From contig BSYQ01000006.1 in NCBI GenBank assembly GCA_030272585.1, forward strand, positions 3,869,001-3,933,000: a stretch of DNA of 64,000 bases, written 5' to 3'. The stretch is from Bryopsis sp. KO-2023 (taxonomy: Eukaryota; Chlorophyta; Ulvophyceae; Bryopsidales; Bryopsidaceae). Made by a program: the position numbers and the translations under genes. The notes under the pieces were generated by a model. It ran no database searches, was not told the DNA's origin, and worked only from the letters and a program-made list of their open reading frames with translations. Within the stretch, counting starts at the first letter, position 1. Each line of letters starts with the position of its first letter. Shown here piece by piece: positions 23,648-38,251 of this stretch.

Positions 23648-26600
23648 ATGGAGCAGCCGAAGCAAGACAAGGCGGAGTCCACCCCGCTAGTGAGCGTAGA
23701 CCCCAAAGGCGAGAAAGAGACGTCGGGCGCCCCCCCTGCCAAATGTTTCGGCAAGCAGCACCCCGAACCCATCGTTTTCCAGGCCAAGGCCGAATCGAAA
23801 GATGAATGTTCCGGCAAGCAGCACCCCGAACCCATCGTTTTCCAGGCCAAGGCCGAATCGAAAGATGAATGTTTCGGCAAGCAGCACCCCGAACCCGTCG
23901 TTTTCCAAGCCAAGGCCGAATCGAAAGATGAACCTGCTAGCGAAGACGTGGAGATGAAGGAAGCTCGAGTGGAACCTAGGAAGGTGAGCTCGATCTATGC
24001 GTTCGGACCGATTCTTTTAAAGCAAAAAATATATATAAAAAAACGTCGATAGTGGACGTTTGCTTCTAATCTTTTGTACGCGTTGAGTGAGAAAGTTGAA
24101 TTTTGTTTTTTGTTTTTCTTCTTTTTTTTTCTTATATTGGAAATGTCTAGAAGAGAATCGACGTAAGAAGACCCCGTGTTTGCTTTGCTTCGTGGTGACG
24201 TGTCTGGGGAAAACTTTTGCTTTACGTCATCAAGTAGGTGGATTTTTTCCTTCTCTATCCCTCTTGTAACCTTTATTTGTATTATTTATTCACTTATTTA
24301 TTTATATTATTTCCCCCATAAATGAGGTTACACAGACTTGCGCATCCATCCATAAAATTGCTGAACTTTTTTTACTGTACCTTGACAAAAAGAAACAGGA
24401 CCAGAATTAGCGGCATTGGGGGATGGGGGGTCGAGTATCTCATAAAAGAATTGAATAATAATATTAGTCATTCCCAGTTTTCGTAAGAAATTGAGCATCC
24501 AATGCAAAACACCCACCCGGTGGCTTCGTTTTTTTTGCAGAGAACCAGGCCAAAAAGGAAGAACAAGTCCAAGCAAAAGAAACCCCCGCAGAAAATGATT
24601 TACACGGATTACGATCGATGCCATGGCAGCTTTCCTCCGCCCAAAATCATCGAATCCGAAATTCATCTGGAGCATCGAATGGACACCACTATGGAGATTC
24701 CCAGGCGCCATGATACGCTGCACGTTTTTGGGGTGGACATCATGGGCACCAGCGATATTTTTGGATATTTCAGACCATTTAAACCTCTCAGCGTCGAGTG
24801 GTTGAACGACTCATCTTGTAAGTTGGGGAAGGAAAAAGTATTTCCGTGCATTTTTCTTAATTTTTTTTCTCTTGATTTTTTTTCTTTGCTTATTTTTGCA
24901 TGGCACTGTGTGTGGTGTTTTTTGTGTTTTTCTGCTCTTTTTTTTTTTTTTTTTTTGGGGGGGGGTCTTTTTCCTAATTTTGGAAAAAGGCAATGTGTAT
25001 TGAGGTTTATTCTTTTTTGATGTGTTTTTTCTGTTTATTTTTCTGGGCTGCAAAGTTTCATTCAAGATGCTCCGGATTATTTTATGTTTCTTTAATCACG
25101 TCCACACAGCTATTTTTTTTATTTTTTTGTTGGTGCATGCTTTCAAAAAAGAGGCAGCAGAATTTGATTCATGAAAGAAGACAGGGGGAAGGGAAAAAAA
25201 ACGCACACACACCTTTAAATTATGGTCATTTTTGTTTTGGTCTTCTGTTTCGCAGTTTGATCGACTGCAAAGAGAACATTTACCCAAAGGCTTGGGCAAA
25301 AAAAGTTGCATCAAAAAGTTCTTATTTCGTTATGGACTGTCCCCGCTTCAGGTAATGTTGTCTTATCGAGCGAGGACCATATTGCTGATGCTTTGGGTTT
25401 CCTGGGGCGACCTGTTCCGGCTGCTGATATGCCCAGCGGTAAACGCATTTTACTGCATTATTAATTTTTTAAAAAAATACCTTTTACCTTTTACTTCGAG
25501 ATAGATATAAATATATATTTTTGTATGTTTTTTCTTCTTTTTGTTTTTTTTGGGGGGGAGGGGATTTTTATTTTTATTTTTTTTTGGGGGGGTCTGTACG
25601 ATGTTTGTTTGGCCCCCTTTTTTTGCCATAAGAAAGTGCATTGGAGTTTTCACCCAGATTGAGGGTTCACTGTGAGAATTTATTTAGGCATATATCCTTA
25701 ATGCGATGCAGAGATGCCAAAAAAAATGTGGTGTTTGATTTGGGGGGGGGGGGGAGTCTGTTAAATTTTATTACTTTTTTTTTTAATTTCCCATAAATAA
25801 GAATACGTTCACCACAATTTTCCTGTGGAAAGAAAAAGAAATAATTAGTTACTTGTTTTTTTCCGTTTTCCTTTTTCCCAGATGCCATTAAGGATAAGGG
25901 CTTCTGCATGACATACCTATGGTACCGAGCCCGGCCTTTTTTGAAGGGTGCTGCAATAGGCCACGGCCGCGATAAAATCGACCAAGTGCACTTGATGCTG
26001 AGAATGGCGACTGTGGAGGATACCCGGCCATCCGTACAGCCAAAAGTTACGAGAAAGCTGTGGATGCAGGATAGAAAACAGGTTTGTGGCCAAATTTCCT
26101 TCAACTGTAAAATTTGATATTTGTAAAATTTGGTTTTATATTTTATTTAAATTTGATATTTAATATTTGAATTTTAAGTTTTTTTTATTTTAAATTTTTC
26201 AACTTTTACTCCCCTGAGAACCCTTATTGTTTATTTTGATTTGATTTGCCCTGAACCCTTTGCAATGGATTGGCTTTTCCAGATGCAGCAAGTTTTGTAC
26301 CAAGATAATTTGTTGGACCATGAATTGGCTGAACGCAACAATCGCAAGAGAAAGACAGGGAGGAACGACGGAGCTGAAAAGAAGAAGTCCCAGAGGAAAA
26401 ATCAGCAGAAAAAGCAAGCGGAGAAGAAGAAGGTTGTTGAAGAGGAGGATTCAGCTATGGTGAGTTTGACCTGTGTTCAAGATCTCGTTTTTCAGCACTG
26501 TTGAAACCACAGTATAAAAAACCACAGTTTTTACAGAGAGTCAAAGTTGTTCCCCACTCACTTCCTAAATACACAAACTCAAAACTCGACTAACATCCCT

Positions 26601-28111: not shown

Positions 28112-31100
28112 TCAAAACTTGACTCGCATCAGGACTGGGTTGAGAACTATGGGTGCAAAAAAGTGCCCCAGAATCACGATACCCAAGGGGACAATCGAGT
28201 AGCTCGTCCTGATTCTCCAAGGTGGCGGCGCAAAGTAGAACCCAACGACCGTTCCAGACAGCAGGGTCATCAACGTGTAGCACCAGCGATACACGCTGAC
28301 GGTATACGCTAGCTCCTGGAAGAAGTTCTTCTTTGTCACCTCCTTCGAGGTGGTGCCGAATTGCATGTCAAACTGGAAGATGTGGGAGAGGATGGAAACG
28401 AACAAATGGAACGAAAGTCCGTTGAAGAAAATTATGAAGGTGGGGACATGCTTGAATTCAACGAAGATTGCATGCAGGAGGGAGTCCATTCCTAGTCGAT
28501 ACCTGTAAGCATATCCAACAGAACCAGCTCCAGGTACACAGGCTAGCTACAAAACTCCTCCACACCTTGGGTGTGTGGAAAAACTGCGGGAAGTTTGAAG
28601 GAAAACAATGGTGGTGTAAGAGGTTTCGGATTTCGGCTGGACTCCTCACCTCAGCAGAGCTGCACTGAATGGGGCCGCGATGCTGAACACCAGGAACACA
28701 GTCGCGCTGATATCCACCGCCGTCACCACTTCATTTCTCCAGTATTCAGACCAGCTGAACATGAAGTAGTGTAGAATCGCCAGCCACCACGCCGAAGATA
28801 TGGCAAAATAACTTCCCATATACGAAGTGATAGTGATTTTGGACCACCAGGGAGCGTCGGAAAACAGGAAACTCCAATACAGCGAGGAAATCGGTCCTTC
28901 ATACCACTTGTGTAGGGGGTTGAACAGCAGCTCGGCGGAACCGAAACTGTATTTTCTTAAGCGAGTGATCTCATCGTGGACAGTCAAGGAAACGCCTTCC
29001 TGAAATCCTTTCCCAGTGTATGTGATATAGCGCCCATGGTAACCTTTAACCTGAACAACCCGAGAGTCAGTCCAGCTTATTGGACTGAGAACTTCATATT
29101 GTGATTTGGCTTTGGTGGTGGTAGTTGCTAGGAGCAATCCGAAAAAAAGCGACAGAACACTATTTTGAATGCAACCTGTATTCAACGTTTTCAATATAAT
29201 GGGGGCAATGCAGGGAGACAGTCGACCTTGAATAGAATTATGCCATTGTCCAATGCACCTGGAGCCGAAGCGAAAAATCAAAGTCCTCCGAAACGTGGTT
29301 CTCCGACCACATCTTGACAGCTTTGTCGTAAGGATCCAGGAAAGCGCACTCTTTCATTGCGCTCCACCTGAGGAAAGCGTTATGACCCACCAAAGGTGCA
29401 ACATCCCCCCCACTGCAAGCGAGACGAATTGCGATATTGTACACAGCCACTGTGAAGTGTGAGATGGCATTCTCCCAATAGTCATTCACCACCTGGGAAA
29501 CGAAACAAGATTTGTCTAGTGCAAGGAAAGCTCGACAAAAAACAAGTACTTGATATGAGATGTATGTGACACGGAATGCTCCCGATCGAGAAATAGGTTT
29601 TCAGGGAGATTTGCACCAGTGCGGGGAAGTTAGGAGCTTGCCTGCATTGGTGTTGTTGAGTGCTGAGTGAAGGCCACTTGTTCTTCCTTCATGAGCTCAG
29701 TCACTGTTGGGGCTATGCAGTCCTCTGGGACTCGCGTATCCGAATCGACCAGGAGGATGAATTCCCCGATACGCACATCGCCCCCAGCTAAAAACTCATG
29801 ACCTCTTTCTTGAAGCACAATGTCCAGGGCGGTGTGATGGTCGATGTTTGAGCTTTCCTGGCATCTTTCCACACTCTGACTAACTTCCAAGCAGAAGTTC
29901 ATATTGCTAGCTTTCTTGAACCGCCCCCTTCGACTGTACACATTCGGTTGATGGGGTGGCCGCGCGCAATATGCGATCTCGTGGGAATCATAGAAAGCAA
30001 TTCTGTTCTCACGGTCCTCAGCAGAAATCAGCATCAGCCCATCATCATTGACGTAGATTGTACAGTCGCCGCCTTGCAACCTGTGAAAACTCGGCTGTGG
30101 TGAAGGGTGCTTGGGTTCCAGAGACATATTTTCAACTGGGGGGGGGGCTGTTGAGGCCATGATCGTGTGGGCAGTTTCTTCACCTATATTTATTTGATGC
30201 TTGAATCAGAGACACCAGTGATGGCTTGATGACAAGTTCGAAACTTTCTTTGAAGACAGGCATCTGGATTGTAACTTTTGGCAACCGTTCAGCGAGCCTG
30301 CTGGGGGCTACACTGCTGTGATATTTTGAATTGCCTTCCTGAAAGCCAGCACCAAGATGGCTCATTCGGGATATCTTGAACAGCAACACACTTGATGGCG
30401 CCATTGGAGAGGGAAGTGGCATGGTGGTGCCTTACCAGATGTGCAATTGTGCCCAGTCCTGAGACGATGCTGTTGATCAGCGTGTAGCAAGAAAATATCA
30501 TAAAAAATATGACGATGGGAAGGAACGCAAGATGTATCGCCCTGAGCCAGTTTCCGTCCTCCATACTTCGAGACATGTTGCTTTTGGCCCAGAGAGCGCA
30601 CACACCCAGCACAAGCAATACGCTTATCGTAGTGGTAAAAGGCACATGCCATCTCCACGCCTCTATTTGAGTTCCTTCCAAAGATGAAGCTTCAGTTGTG
30701 CTGCTTGAGCTTTCGAATCTTGTGCCCACTTGGGTTTGTTGTTCCGCTTCCAGCACGGCGATAATCTAAATCACATGCGATCACATGGTGAGAACACTAG
30801 CCCCTATCCAATAGAAGGATACATATACCATCCTATGCAGACCCGCAGCAATAAAGTTGCATTCTCAACAACTGATTTTTTCTCGTTGATAGGATCGTGA
30901 TAAGTACTTTGGCCATACCGTTCGAAGGAGGAATACCTCCTTGGCGTCATCTACATTGTGCAGGTTGGTGCAATCTGCTTTCAAAGCTTCTTTCTCTTCC
31001 ATGATCTCCACGCCAATCCCATTGTTTCTGCCAGCTCCAGCATCCAGTGACACGAGAAAGCTCTTCACCACATGGTGAATTGTTTCAACATCAACTCCGT

Positions 31101-32505
31101 GCCTTTGCATTGTGAACACCTGACCCCGTATGCTAGCAGATGCTGATCGATCGCTTTCCGAAGGCTGAAACGAGGCTCTTGAAATTTGATCTCCAAACAC
31201 CCTCACGTCCTCGTGTACATCGCTGGGAATCTGATGAGTGCACATATTCCATTAATCGATGTATTTCACCACTGGTTCCATAGTGCTGTTGCCCACAAAC
31301 ACAGTACCTTGATGTGGCCGCACAGTTTCGCAAGACTGGAGGCGAGCTGGCGAGATGCATGGTGAAATTGGGTAGATACCATTTCGCAAGCCAATAGGGA
31401 TCGCAAAGCCCCAAAATCCCTACAGCGAGCCATTGTGCGCAGAATTTGTTCGCAACCTTCACCTATGGAGCCTGAAGTTTAACGTTCCACACATATCTTC
31501 ATGTAACTGAGTAGCCAGGAAATCTCCACACGTGAATGAAATCTCTCTGTAGCGGTCTTAGACTGTTCTCTTTGAACGTTGGGTTTATATGGAATTCACT
31601 TGAGCTTACCTAGAGAATTTTCTGTGGGGGACAAGGGCAATGCCCCACAGACCTCGGGCTCCCTGCTTTCGTTGGCGACACACAATGGTCTCCGCACATC
31701 CGTCCATTGCCTTGATGAACACCAATGTACTGTGTTCGACTGCTTGCATTCTGTGAGCTGTCTCTCCACTTCAACCAGTATTGTAGAAAGTTTCCTCACG
31801 AATCTCGCAGCCAACCGACAATCCTCCAGATTCGCAGTGGCTGATCTTGAGATTGTCAGTATTTCCTCGCAGCAGCCCCTGATGTGCCTCGTGATATCAA
31901 GGAGATGGGTGGGACGAAGGAAGGGGCTTTCTGAACAAGTGGTTCACAGCGATTGTCAAACAAAGCACGTCCAATCTGTTGAACTACTGAACAATAAAGC
32001 TTTCAGCACTCTAACACAAACACCTGCAAGCGTGATGAACAGTTTGAGAAAATCAACTATTTGGTGAATATTTGCGCCCACCTCGCAGAGGCGATTTGCA
32101 AGAGTCGGCCGAAGTTGCTATCCGATTTGTGATATCTGTGAATGCCCTGTGCATTCTTGGTTCAGATGAGGTCGCCACAGCCCCGTGCTCATCACCACCG
32201 TGGCCTCGAGGAGATACACCCTCGGGAGTAGTTTCGGGGCTCAACTCGAGCGTGCGCTCATTTCGAGTATGGACAGCCATGTCCACTTGAATCTCCATGT
32301 AATCATCACCAGAAGATTGACTGGCAGAGCTTGAGCATCCACCTTGGAGTTCGGCTGTGGATCTTCCGCTATCCGCTGGAGACTGGGTGGTAGCGGTTGG
32401 CGGTGGCACGTCCTTGTGAGTGGGCCTTGAACTTCTTCCATTGATTGAGTTGTCGCTCACTTCCAGCACAGATTTTGAACGACGGCGCTCACGAAATCTA
32501 GACAT
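28112..32505 (-). CDS. GT2 glycosyltransferase fused to an N-terminal helical bundle
   Basis: Membrane glycosyltransferase of the fungal-type family 2 (large GT2, related to chitin synthase and mannan-type enzymes). Ten exons (32505-32082, 31930-31610, 31462-31308, 31230-30937, 30765-30436, 30374-30184, 30080-29642, 29492-29259, 29050-28650, 28502-28112) join in phase to about 1,059 residues. Residues 1-141 are Ser/Thr-rich and probably disordered. Residues ~142-400 form a predicted helical bundle (PFLRPTHLLDITRHIRGCCE, NLEDCRLAARFVRKL, GALRSLLACEMVSTQFHHAS). Two membrane helices follow near 425-485. The catalytic part has ILLVDSDTRVPEDC (DxD), GDVAPLVGHNAFLRW, SEDFDFSLRLQ and EGVSLTVHDEITRLRKYSFG, then about five C-terminal helices. 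The intron after 29642 uses a GC donor. Substrate is unknown. It is followed upstream on the same strand by a KRE6/SKN1-like GH16 gene. An ATG at 32505 was chosen because the frame upstream lacks one. Confidence 0.88.
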
Positions 32506-32735: not shown

Positions 32736-32793
32736 GTGAAAAATATGGATCCAGAGAAAGTAGTTCTACTCTCTCTGGATCCATATTTTTCAC
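32736..32793. repeat. 58-bp near-perfect inverted repeat (hairpin)
   Basis: Two 28-nt arms (32736-32763 and 32766-32793) match at 27 of 28 positions around a 2-nt loop. The arms contain GTGAAAAATATGGATCCAGA. It lies about 230 bp upstream of the GT2 start. It could be a transcribed small-RNA precursor, a cruciform, or a foldback element remnant. Confidence 0.9.
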
Positions 32794-33817: not shown

Positions 33818-36767
33818 TCACAAGAGTACAAAGCACAGCAGAACAACAGTCCCAGCGGCGGCACTCAGCAGCACGGTGAAGTCAGTGTTAGGTCTGTGGC
33901 TTCCACTGTCCTCACTGTATCCCAATAAATCGCGAAACACGTCTGGAACCACCTCAGGCTGGCGGCATTTGTCGCCGATCAGAAGATGGTCCTTGTCGCC
34001 CAGGATATAATGTTGTGGATGGCAGGCAATCCACTGGCTCGTTGGATATTCAGGAGGTGAACATCCCAGGTTGTACCTGGAAACCACGCAGACAAACATG
34101 TCGTTGAAGATGCCGCAAATTCAAACAGCAAGCTCGTGTCCCACTCTTTTTTTCCGCCCTACTTTCCAGGCTCCTGGTACAACCGAACGTAGTCGATCTC
34201 CATCGTCGCGGGGAATGTGAGGTTGGGGTCGATGGAGCTCCAACTGTGACTTATTGCAAGCTGCATAATGATATACAGTGGCTCCTTCGGGATCAACCTC
34301 TCCCCAACCTCCTGTGTGCCTTTGCTCCTTGCTTGAAGGGCCTCTTTATTGATTTCGTACAAGAGCTCTCCATTCAGATACCACCGAATATATTCCTCAG
34401 GATCCCAATCCAGCCCAAACGTCTGGAAATCCTTGAAATCATCCTCAGTCAGACTTGTGGCTGCTGACATGGTGTCCTAAAGAGAATCGACACAACAGCA
34501 GACTAACACCACCACCAATGGAAATCTTTTGAATGCTTCAGTAGCATGTGAGTCCAAGGATATGCTCCTTAAACTTACACTGTATCTGGTACCTGGACGA
34601 GGGCTGGATGCTCCGCTGAGCTCACCATACCATTGGGATGCCCCTGTGTTTTCACCTGGGAACTGAATGCCAGGTGCCCCATTGTCCAGCCAATTCAGCC
34701 CTGGTGGGAGAAGCGGAGCCATTTGTAGAGATTGGACGAGGTTATGCCACCCAGGGCCGCTTTGAATTTCCAGCAGATCAAGTTCAGGTGAACCTCGGCC
34801 TATAAACGCACACAGCTAACACGTGGAAAAAAAATTCTGGGAGGTGAAAGGAGCAATTATGACAGACACTCTTCCCACCTATTCCACGCTCAATCTGGTA
34901 GTCTGTTCGGTTGGTTTCTGACACATCTCCACAGGCAGACAAGGTTTGCCCTGGCTGCTCCGACCAATCCTGGCCATGACTTCCTTCACATTGGTTGTAG
35001 GAGTATGGCCAAAAACCTGCACACCACACATACCTCCTCTCAGCATGCCCACATGCAGAAATGAAGCTTCTACCAAAACATATTTATGTTTTTCCACCAT
35101 CCATGATGTGTTAAATGCTCATACCAGATGTAGAGTTGACATAACCGGCCTTGGCTAAATTCCCAAGCAGCCAGACGGCAGGCCACAATCCGTAAGAGTC
35201 ATCTTCCCCAGGGAGCTTGACTGACAACTCAAGGTAGCCACCAGTGTAGCAAAACTTATTCCAGCTCGACAGCTGGCCACTTTTATGTGTGGTGTTGTAT
35301 ACTTCCTTTTGAGATGTCATAAGGTTGAATCCCACCGCAGAGGTTTGCTCCTCAGAAATTTTAATCTTCAACTTTCCACCTTGAAGCATCAAAAACAAAA
35401 ATATTGAAGGATGCTCAATATTTCTATTGCTATATTGCTATTTATATATATATAGCAGGTCGGGGGCTCCCCAAGAACGCGCACGTCCAAATCAACCAAA
35501 CACAAGACCTCAGCAAGAAGAGTGCATGGAAATGTGTTGGTTTCTGAGACTGACGACTACCCACCAGATGTTGAAACAGCGTCAGGTTTGTATGATTGAA
35601 TGTCGTTGGTGACAGTGTACTGAAGATCTGAGGCGCTCCATTTGCCGTCGTCGTCGTCGTTGCCGAATGCACGGGCCGGTGTTTCGAATTCGTCGGAAAA
35701 CACCAACACCTTAACCACAAAGCAGCTTTCAGCACCGGCCGGCGCAAAGAAAAGAACGAAGGAAAAGCGTGATGCGCTAACAAAACATCCAATTGAATGT
35801 CATATCCGCAGGAAGCAAAGTCGTCATATCTCGATTTTCCGTGTAAGCTTGCTGATCAGGCCGTACCGAAACAGACCAAGGCAACACCGAAAACACAAAA
35901 ACGAGCCAGTTTCCAAGACTATGTTCGCACCGTTTCCAGTCGAATTAACCTCCAGGCCTACCATCTCCGAGTGAGGGGTTCCCTTGGAAGTGCATGTGGA
36001 AAAGTCGTCTCGGCACTTCCTGACTACACACGCATCTTCCGAATCCGGGTCCACCCATGCGACGGGCACTCCTTCGTTTCGCAGCTTGTCGCGACAAGAC
36101 GCAGCGCCTTACCGATAACAAGCAAGACCTCGCGTCAGACATTGCTCTGAAACGATCACCTCCTGAGATCCCCACGTTGCAGGAGTTTCCGACGTACAAC
36201 GGAAAAACATGTATAACCAACGGTCGGGAGGTCTTCCATCTCACGGATCCGATCCGCCGTTGCACCCACGAGAAGCTGAGACAAACGCGACGTGCGCGGC
36301 GATTTTTTTGACCCCAACTTGACTTCACAACGCGGATGGGATGGCAGATCGGAACGCTGCTTACCCGTTTCCCGCACCAACACAGCAACTGCGAACAATA
36401 CACGAACAGCATCTGCTTTGCGCAGGGTGTCCATAACGGATCGCAGGAGGGCGACGTCGCAGGGACGTCACGAGACCAAGGTTTCAACAAAGTCGGGCGG
36501 CGGTGGTCGACGTTTTCGTGGATATTGGGTATCTCCAGCAAAGTGTCGCATCAGGACTGTCCGCAGGAAAGCCCCCAGAGTTCCCCCGACCTCTCGCATT
36601 CGAATAACGAAAGTGCATCCTGAAGTGCATCCTCGTTGTTGGGTAGGCCAGGGGAAGCTCGTCAAATCGAGGTTGTTTGCATCCTGGACGGAGCAGATCA
36701 ACAGAAGGTGCACGGGCACGACTATTTTCAAGTTCCGCTGAATTGTGCTTGCGTCTAGCGTATGCAT
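33818..36767 (-). CDS. KRE6/SKN1-like GH16 glucan-associated membrane protein
   Basis: Member of the SKN1/KRE6 family (GH16 fold), required for beta-1,6-glucan assembly in yeast and found in several glucan-making protists. Exons 35776-35565, 35379-35125, 35016-34879, 34799-34579, 34476-34163 and 34076-33818 keep phase. Landmarks in order: LVFSDEFETP, KPDAVSTSGGKLKIKI, SWNKFCYTGGYLELSVKLPG, YGLWPAVWLLGNLAKAGY, FWPYSYNQC, the catalytic GH16 motif SPELDLLEIQ (E-x-D-x-x-E), FGLDWDPEEYIRWYLNGELL, MEIDYVRLYQEPG, YNLGCSPPEYPTSQWI. The last exon ends in a single membrane helix (DFTVLLSAAAGTVVLLCFVLL without the first residue) at the extreme C-terminus. Upstream exons to about 36767 are less sure; the first may start with a signal peptide (IVVPVHLLLICSVQDA). 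Yeast KRE6 is a type II protein, so this C-terminal anchor is a different topology. Confidence 0.85.
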
Positions 36768-37051: not shown

Positions 37052-38110
37052 TCAACACGTCGGCACCCCTTCAAAAGTCGCCCTGAGCATGGTGTGATCC
37101 GACGGCTCATTCTCATTAGGATATGGACCATCAATGGTCGCTTCTTTGGGAAGCTCCCCCACATCCTCCACCTTCCAATTTTCAGAAGTAAATATGTAGT
37201 CGAGCGTCCCTACAAACGGAGGATCGTCCCTGATCTGCGCATTGTTGGTGAATTCAGGCTCCGACCCGAGACACTCTTTGTACGCACTCTTGAGTCGATT
37301 TTTCAGCTCCGGCTTCCACGTTTCATGTGGAGGCAAATCAGCGTCCATCCCCGCATCCAGCGTCGTCAAAAGATTGTAAGGTGGCTCACCGGGTTTGAAA
37401 TTCCAATCCCCCACCAGCAAATAAGGGTCCCCATTCGATCTGCTCTCCATGAACTGTGCCGCCAGGGCAGCATGAGTCAGCATCACCTTGGGCCGTCTGA
37501 ATTCGCAAGGCATGTGATACGTCCCGACCAAAAACGTCCGTTTCGTTTCCTTGCAATCCAGTTTCAACATGACGATTCGATTGGATCGATACTTGGCTTT
37601 CTGCAGCCAATCCTCCGGCGTTTTCCCTAGGAACGAGAGTGGGTTGGACACCCTCAAAGAAATGCCGACCTTGTTCAGCAGAGCGCCCGGAATCCCAGTC
37701 AGCCATCCGATCGGGTTCGATTTCCTCGGCTCCCTCCTCCATTTCACCAAATCCGTCAGCCGGAGCATTTCGCAGTCCTTCATGGAGTATCTATTCAGGG
37801 GGAAAGCCACCCCAACCCCCATGAAATCGCTCCAGTGGCCCCCATACTGAGTTTGCAAGAAGAAGTACCCATGCTTGTGAAAGAAACTCGAAAATCTGCC
37901 CGCCCATTGCAGGGACACCTCCTGCAGGCAGATGATCGATTTGGCCTCCACTTCCGGTTTCAGTTTCTGAATAACTCTCTTCAATCGGGTTTCCGCTTTC
38001 AGATCCTCCGGTTTACAATGCGTAAAGTAGTCGGGGGGTGCCAGTGAGCTGGATAAAACATTGTACGTAAGAACCCGCACTTGCGAATTCGAATTCGACC
38101 CGGGCTCCAT
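37052..38110 (-). CDS. Endonuclease/exonuclease/phosphatase-family enzyme
   Basis: A single long exon encodes about 352 residues of the EEP superfamily (Mg-dependent phosphoesterases such as CCR4-type deadenylases, Angel and PDE12). Family motifs are in order: VRVLTYNVLSSSLAP at the N-terminus, IICLQEVSLQWAG (metal-binding Glu), GTYHMPCEF, LLVGDWNFKPGE (Asp/Asn pair), and EPSDHTMLRATF near the C-terminus (catalytic SDH). No targeting signal is clear. The ATG at 38110 is the first Met close to the domain. The frame stays open to 38251, where TTCTGG is followed by GTAAGC, so an upstream exon joined by an intron is possible. The exact substrate (poly(A), 2'-5' linkages, or lipid/phosphate) cannot be told from sequence. 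Confidence 0.85.
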   Translation of the reverse strand: MEPGSNSNSQVRVLTYNVLSSSLAPPDYFTHCKPEDLKAETRLKRVIQKLKPEVEAKSIICLQEVSLQWAGRFSSFFHKHGYFFLQTQYGGHWSDFMGVGVAFPLNRYSMKDCEMLRLTDLVKWRREPRKSNPIGWLTGIPGALLNKVGISLRVSNPLSFLGKTPEDWLQKAKYRSNRIVMLKLDCKETKRTFLVGTYHMPCEFRRPKVMLTHAALAAQFMESRSNGDPYLLVGDWNFKPGEPPYNLLTTLDAGMDADLPPHETWKPELKNRLKSAYKECLGSEPEFTNNAQIRDDPPFVGTLDYIFTSENWKVEDVGELPKEATIDGPYPNENEPSDHTMLRATFEGVPTC

Positions 38111-38251
38111 CCCAATTCCACCGTCAGCAGCGCTGGAGCTATGTCTTCCTTCCCCCCAGGATTTTCCGCTGTTCCAACTGTCGACACCGCCGCTGAACTC
38201 GTGCAGGGAAAGCAAATTGCTTACCCAGAATGGACCGATCACTTGGGACAC

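Follow-up and report, generated by a model that had tools for sequence, protein, structure and literature searches.

A family 2 glycosyltransferase of Bryopsis that appears to carry an N-terminal helical bundle of the MLKL/U-box class

Why would a membrane enzyme that probably builds a sugar polymer carry, ahead of its first membrane helix, a helical bundle resembling those of cell-death and ubiquitin-ligase proteins? The question is raised by a gene at positions 28112–32505 (minus strand) of a 64,000-nucleotide stretch of DNA (the window; positions 3,869,001–3,933,000 of contig BSYQ01000006.1, assembly GCA_030272585.1) from Bryopsis sp. KO-2023, a giant-celled ulvophyte. An earlier examination of the letters of the window, made without database searches (the sequence-only reading), had proposed that ten exons at this place join a four-helix-type bundle in one frame to a glycosyltransferase of family 2 (GT2), which it took to be of fungal type. 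We asked whether the two parts really belong to one protein, to which class the bundle belongs, and what it might do in front of such an enzyme. The overall explanation that we favor, which we would call an even proposition, is that of a membrane GT2 resembling glucan synthases whose N-terminus bears, on the cytosolic side, a four-helix adaptor of the MLKL_N/PUB10_N class.

Rebuilt from the DNA, the ten exons (32505–32082, 31930–31610, 31471–31308, 31230–30937, 30765–30436, 30338–30184, 30080–29642, 29492–29259, 29050–28650 and 28502–28112, all on the minus strand) joined in phase as proposed, yielding a protein of 1050 amino acids with no internal stop, in which all three landmarks named by the sequence-only reading were present. 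The nine introns measured 77–208 bases; eight were GT–AG and one, after 29642 within the GT2 gene (29641–29493), was GC–AG. Exon 4 has an in-phase alternative donor 18 bases further on (exon end at 30919). Exon 1 (32082–32505) supplies the start codon and a disordered lead (residues 1–141). It is followed by a helical region (residues 142–401) comprising the bundle itself, probably of the MLKL_N/PUB10_N class, in exons 2 and 3 (31308–31930; residues 142–303) and additional helical stretches in exon 4 (30937–31230; residues 304–401). Beyond the junction intron (30766–30936, phase 0), exon 5 (30436–30765) encodes a short premembrane helix and the first two membrane helices (TM1, 30645–30589; TM2, 30531–30475), which begin at residue 442, and exons 6–10 (28112–30338) encode the GT2 catalytic domain and the C-terminal membrane helices (residues 512–1050). 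By residue propensity alone, which is a rough measure, the longer helical stretches fell at about residues 154–205, 257–299, 332–342, 357–368, 379–392 and 395–414, with 142–153, 206–254 and most of 300–331 not helical. Support for the bundle proposed at about residues 142–400 comes from homology, as described below.

The evidence that bundle and enzyme form one protein came from a paralogue. Using the GT2 part to search the window's own genome (91.1 Mb in 28 contigs, with all gene counts being lower bounds), we detected at least two copies of the gene, the one in the window and another on contig C2, which we modeled by hand as 12 exons encoding 1091 amino acids. The GT2 parts of the two copies were 54% identical across 607 aligned residues, and both copies carried a helical region ahead of TM1. 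Three exons before TM1 in the C2 gene are the counterparts of window exons 2, 3 and 4, and four intron phases (1, 1, 0 and 0) are equal in the two genes; of these introns, the first matches by order only, and the other three, ending with the junction intron, sit at matching places. Within the GT2 part, a single intron place (after SEDF..RLQ or RFQ) is common to both copies. Because the C2 copy shares both this N-terminal helical region and the intron phases, including that of the junction intron, an error of gene joining is very unlikely. A standalone GT2 gene was also ruled out: exon 5 of the window copy has no in-frame ATG ahead of TM1, and the paralogue has the same layout. As judged from these gene models, the fusion of bundle and GT2 in one frame is thus almost certainly real, and the arrangement first proposed for the window recurs in a second gene.

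The helical region itself retained detectable similarity between the copies. Aligned as one stretch, exons 2–4 scored 70 over window residues 232–366. No score above 64 arose from 1000 shuffles, and none above 61 from 1000 shuffles of seven-residue blocks, which rules out chance helical composition as the source of this similarity. Exon 2 alone scored 47 in a gap-free alignment of residues 162–197 (a score that none of 1000 shuffles, but 3 of 1000 block shuffles, reached), and exon 4, which is conserved in the paralogue, scored 48 on its own (reached by 1 and 0, respectively). BLASTP of one N-terminal part against the other gave an E value of 8e-4, and the disordered lead, which served as a control, showed no significant conservation (94 of 1000 shuffles reached its score). 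Two comparisons speak against a conserved bundle: exon 3 alone was not significant (53 of 1000 shuffles and 202 of 1000 block shuffles reached its score), and exons 2–3 taken as one stretch were weaker, with a score reached by 7 and 33 of 1000, respectively. At ~20% identity between the copies, versus 54% for the enzyme, the bundle has diverged much further than the domain to which it is joined.

To what class does the bundle belong? For both copies the best single match in Pfam was PUB10_N (PF25368), the N-terminal domain of plant U-box proteins. The C2 bundle matched positions 3–120 of this 124-position profile with an E value of 4.4e-5 (24.5 bits), and the window bundle matched it with an E value of 1.8e-4 or 1.1e-3 (without or with an unmatched loop in exon 2; 16.2–22.5 bits). 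Reversed bundle sequences gave no PUB10_N match.

In the same genome we also found an exon encoding such a bundle upstream of one encoding a U-box. Used as a query, that bundle returned seven places including itself, down to an E value of 3, and a genome search with MLKL_N returned six, five of them common to both searches, for a combined eight distinct places. All eight had a U-box match 709–1952 bases downstream on the same strand, where ~5e-4 would be expected per place (45 U-box matches were listed in the genome; context was judged against U-boxes, and kinases were not searched for). The eight MLKL_N-class exons lie on contigs C4 and C5 (loci L024–L030 and L043–L048), six of them on C4. 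Read from their sequences, these loci form a protein family that combines a U-box with an MLKL-like bundle at the N-terminus. When the seven bundles first collected were scanned one at a time at E values no higher than 1, six matched DUF7792 and five MLKL_N (one shown above cut-off), while RPW8 was matched by two, and PUB10_N and MCAfunc by one each. A profile of the seven (A2, from which the eighth bundle, found later, was left out) matched seven distinct MLKL sequences in the Protein Data Bank (PDB) nearly end to end, with E values from 2.5e-9 to 1.7e-7.

Against A2, the pair of GT2 bundles aligned by hhalign over 99–101 columns with a score of 31.9–34.1 (hhalign probability 62–73). The reversed control scored 13.1, and the highest scores among 200 column shuffles and 200 block shuffles were 19.1 and 24.8, respectively. 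These controls rule out chance helical composition for the pair, whose profile match is colinear and exceeds that of shuffled controls, as expected of a member of the wider MLKL_N/PUB10_N class. A hidden Markov model (HMM) of the same seven bundles scored the C2 bundle at 13.9 bits, and none of 200 shuffles exceeded 8.6.

Other results weigh against this assignment. Both GT2 bundles missed the curated PUB10_N cut-off of 32.6 bits, all of their Pfam matches being below cut-off, and neither matched MLKL_N directly. Taken singly, the copies scored 19.1 (window) and 22.0 (C2) in hhalign, within the range of shuffled pairs, and the HMM gave the window bundle 7.4 bits versus 8.9 for its reverse, so that chance composition could still explain the match of this bundle alone to the U-box-side profile. 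The pair's own profile found no match in PDB, where phmmer with the window bundle returned a single chance match (E value 1.3). No match to MIT, RPW8, HeLo, MCAfunc or Cbl-N was listed by Pfam at E values up to 10 (a range in which HMMER filters drop most weak matches), and Pfam found no U-box in the 1050-residue protein, which on this count is not a UND–U-box E3 ligase. Exon by exon over the whole genome, PUB10_N gave one match (E value 0.049, at C4:3957631), and in 14 bacterial and archaeal control genomes weak matches appeared in two for PUB10_N and in one for MLKL_N, none above cut-off. A candidate third bundle copy, at C6:6222240 (E value 0.44), was rejected as one short exon with a U-box 1.2 kb away on the opposite strand and hence no pair.

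Weighing these results, we consider it likely that the GT2 bundle belongs to the MLKL_N/PUB10_N (MLKL/PUB/RPW8/MCA) class. It probably fits this wider class yet is neither Pfam family itself, and its predicted homology to the U-box-associated bundles of the same genome is well supported. The initial guess of an MCA/RPW8-type bundle was thus probably right as to class, by way of the PUB10_N matches, the U-box-side bundles and the MLKL profile match.

The enzyme's membership in GT2 was clear, with Glyco_trans_2_3 (PF13632) matching residues 670–885 at an E value of 3.4e-44 (151.5 bits versus a cut-off of 27). Processive GT2 synthases of the cellulose, chitin and hyaluronan type carry D, DxD, TED and QxxRW motifs. 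In the window copy, we take VNDDG (30038–30052) to be the first catalytic Asp motif and DSDTR (29732–29746) to be the DxD motif; SEDFD (29277–29291) is TED-like, and RLRKY (28949–28963) stands at the place of QxxRW (all on the minus strand). The catalytic Asp motifs are intact in both copies. One NCBIfam MdoH/OpgH model matched the window copy with an E value of 7.7e-7 and the C2 copy with 1.3e-7, and a second MdoH model matched the window copy with 5.8e-6. The best stretches fell at like positions: counted from just before TM1, protein residues 15–114 corresponded to 25–125 of the first model, and 234–387 to 233–384 of the second. What could be compared therefore points, through a weak resemblance, to OpgH/MdoH-like glucan synthases, and we lean slightly toward a product of the β-glucan type.

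Counting against that identity, the place of QxxRW is occupied by RLRKY or RFRKY in the copies, and the curated OpgH/MdoH cut-off (PRK05454) was missed by a wide margin (27.7 bits for the window copy versus 419). No PDB relatives of the GT2 were found by phmmer, and a two-sequence profile gave only chance-level matches, including one to a solved cellulose synthase (E value 0.13) in which RLRKY was aligned with QVLRW. Bacterial and archaeal genomes and viral contigs, each scanned twice with a pair of short patterns derived from just two sequences, yielded no relatives of the GT2. Elsewhere in the genome, Glyco_trans_2_3 places on C5 and C4 matched this GT2 briefly (E values 0.05–0.8), two on C1 gave no match at E values up to 1, and contig C11 carries a GT48 β-1,3-glucan synthase. 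An account of Bryopsis plumosa describes gametophyte wall microfibrils of 1,3-β-xylan and cellulose and a sporophyte wall of mannan (PMC6419167); a 1,3-β-xylan synthase is a possible alternative identity for the enzyme.

Known systems offer partial parallels. Like OpgH/MdoH, the bacterial osmoregulated glucan glucosyltransferase, the Bryopsis protein has an N-terminal cytosolic region, membrane helices, the GT2 domain and more membrane helices, and NCBIfam MdoH models match it at like positions; unlike that enzyme, it lies far below the curated cut-off, has RLRKY in place of QxxRW, is eukaryotic and is encoded beside a KRE6/SKN1-type gene. The cytosolic N-terminal domain of OpgH is described as interacting with FtsZ (PMC3723540), which sets a precedent for a control domain in this position. 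Further precedents are an oomycete chitin synthase with an N-terminal MIT domain, reported to bind lipid, and fungal chitin synthases with a myosin-like domain (PMC8851075), which likewise place a helical or motor domain N-terminal to a GT2 polymer synthase, although the Bryopsis protein has no MIT match (Pfam, E values up to 10) and its GT2 subgroup looks different. With plant UND/PUB10_N U-box proteins it shares the class of bundle, and the same genome has such bundles ahead of U-boxes, but in place of a U-box it has an integral membrane glycosyltransferase. It is linked to the N-terminal four-helix bundle of MLKL through the U-box-side bundles but has no kinase-like domain, and its bundle has no direct MLKL_N match.

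Because two membrane helices separate them, the bundle and the catalytic domain should lie on one side of the membrane, which by analogy would be the cytosol. There the bundle would most plausibly serve as a docking module, linking the synthase to a partner, while the enzyme would extend a β-linked glucan, or else some related polymer, across the membrane, working in one pathway with the neighboring KRE6/SKN1-type protein. One relevant study indicates that the UND of PUB18 decides its action on Exo70B1 (PMC8875423). We put the docking role at about one chance in two, and consider a regulatory or oligomerizing role for the bundle, as the sequence-only reading proposed, to be a fair supposition.

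The bundle might instead bind membrane lipid and not protein, holding the synthase in membrane patches or aiding its travel. Its relatives are in the MLKL class, the four-helix bundle of MLKL binds membrane lipid, and the MIT domain of the oomycete chitin synthase provides a parallel, but neither copy has a basic excess (net charge over exons 2–3 of +3 in the window and –2 in C2), and we regard this role as unlikely. Alternatively, the bundle and the exon 4 helices could form an intramolecular brake or an oligomerization handle with no outside partner. Such a role is consistent with the retention of exons 2–4 before TM1 in both copies and with the ability of MLKL-class bundles to oligomerize, but the drift of the bundle relative to the enzyme suits changing outside partners at least equally, which leaves this role doubtful as well. 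Finally, that two adjacent genes, one for a bundle protein and one for a separate GT2, were misread as one is highly improbable: exon 4 could run on to a stop after ...KISC, and the single-transcript model was drawn from the DNA alone, but the order and intron phases of the paralogue and the missing ATG ahead of TM1 both oppose it.

Returning to the favored reading of a synthase with a docking adaptor, we considered its genomic neighborhood. Immediately upstream of the GT2 gene, and in the same orientation, is a KRE6/SKN1/Sbg1-type gene (33818–35706, minus strand; matched exons 34162–34482, 35120–35326 and 35554–35706), identified by PF03935 with an E value of 7.6e-24 on one exon; the sequence-only reading of the GT2 gene made no mention of it. 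It is the only KRE6/SKN1-type gene detected in the genome, all three PF03935 matches being its exons. We read the frame ending at 33818 as its putative last exon, in which case the distance from its stop to the start of the GT2 coding sequence is 1312 bases. For a two-copy GT2 family and an assumed twenty thousand genes, we estimate the chance of this adjacency at ~2e-4. Telling against a functional link, no KRE6 gene was detected beside the C2 copy, and the PF03935 model exceeded its cut-off in 3 of the 14 bacterial and archaeal control genomes. Because of these control matches, the PF03935 name denotes a GH16 of that subgroup and is no proof of KRE6 function. A bolder proposal, which we hold to be a long shot, is that the GT2 and the neighboring protein are partners, with the GT2 forming the polymer as the multi-pass synthase that descriptions of β-1,6-glucan (or β-1,3/1,6-glucan) synthesis have lacked, at least in this lineage, and that an MLKL/UND-class adaptor moved onto the GT2, coupling the synthesis of a wall or storage polymer to signaling.

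Other features of the surroundings stand apart from this argument. A perfect inverted repeat (32736–32793), with 22-base arms flanking a 14-base spacer, lies ~230–290 bases ahead of the start of the GT2 coding sequence and may be a small mobile element or form a regulatory hairpin. An open frame of 399 amino acids at 37055–38251 (minus strand) encodes an endonuclease/exonuclease/phosphatase domain (PF03372, E value 1.7e-16), and at 23742–23932 a 63-base unit occurs three times in tandem with hardly any change; its length is divisible by three, and it may be coding. Elsewhere in the assembly, contig C28 (91,672 bases), which starts in a green-type rbcL as read from its translation, is probably a plastid genome.

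Control domains ahead of GT2 polymer synthases are already known, as with MIT and myosin domains on chitin synthases and the FtsZ-binding region of OpgH. To our knowledge, no bundle of the MLKL/U-box-adaptor class has been placed before a GT2 polymer synthase, and a full-text literature search for the bundle class together with GT2 synthase terms found no paper. An enzyme of a type that makes wall or storage sugars and bears a bundle of the cell-death and ubiquitin-ligase type suggests that the synthesis of a sugar polymer may be steered by a signaling-type adaptor, and a two-copy GT2 family with one member adjoining the genome's only detected KRE6/SKN1-type gene provides a concrete candidate synthase. 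If the partnership with the KRE6/SKN1-type protein were true, a domain of cell-death and ubiquitin signaling would couple polymer synthesis to signaling in a giant single-celled alga.

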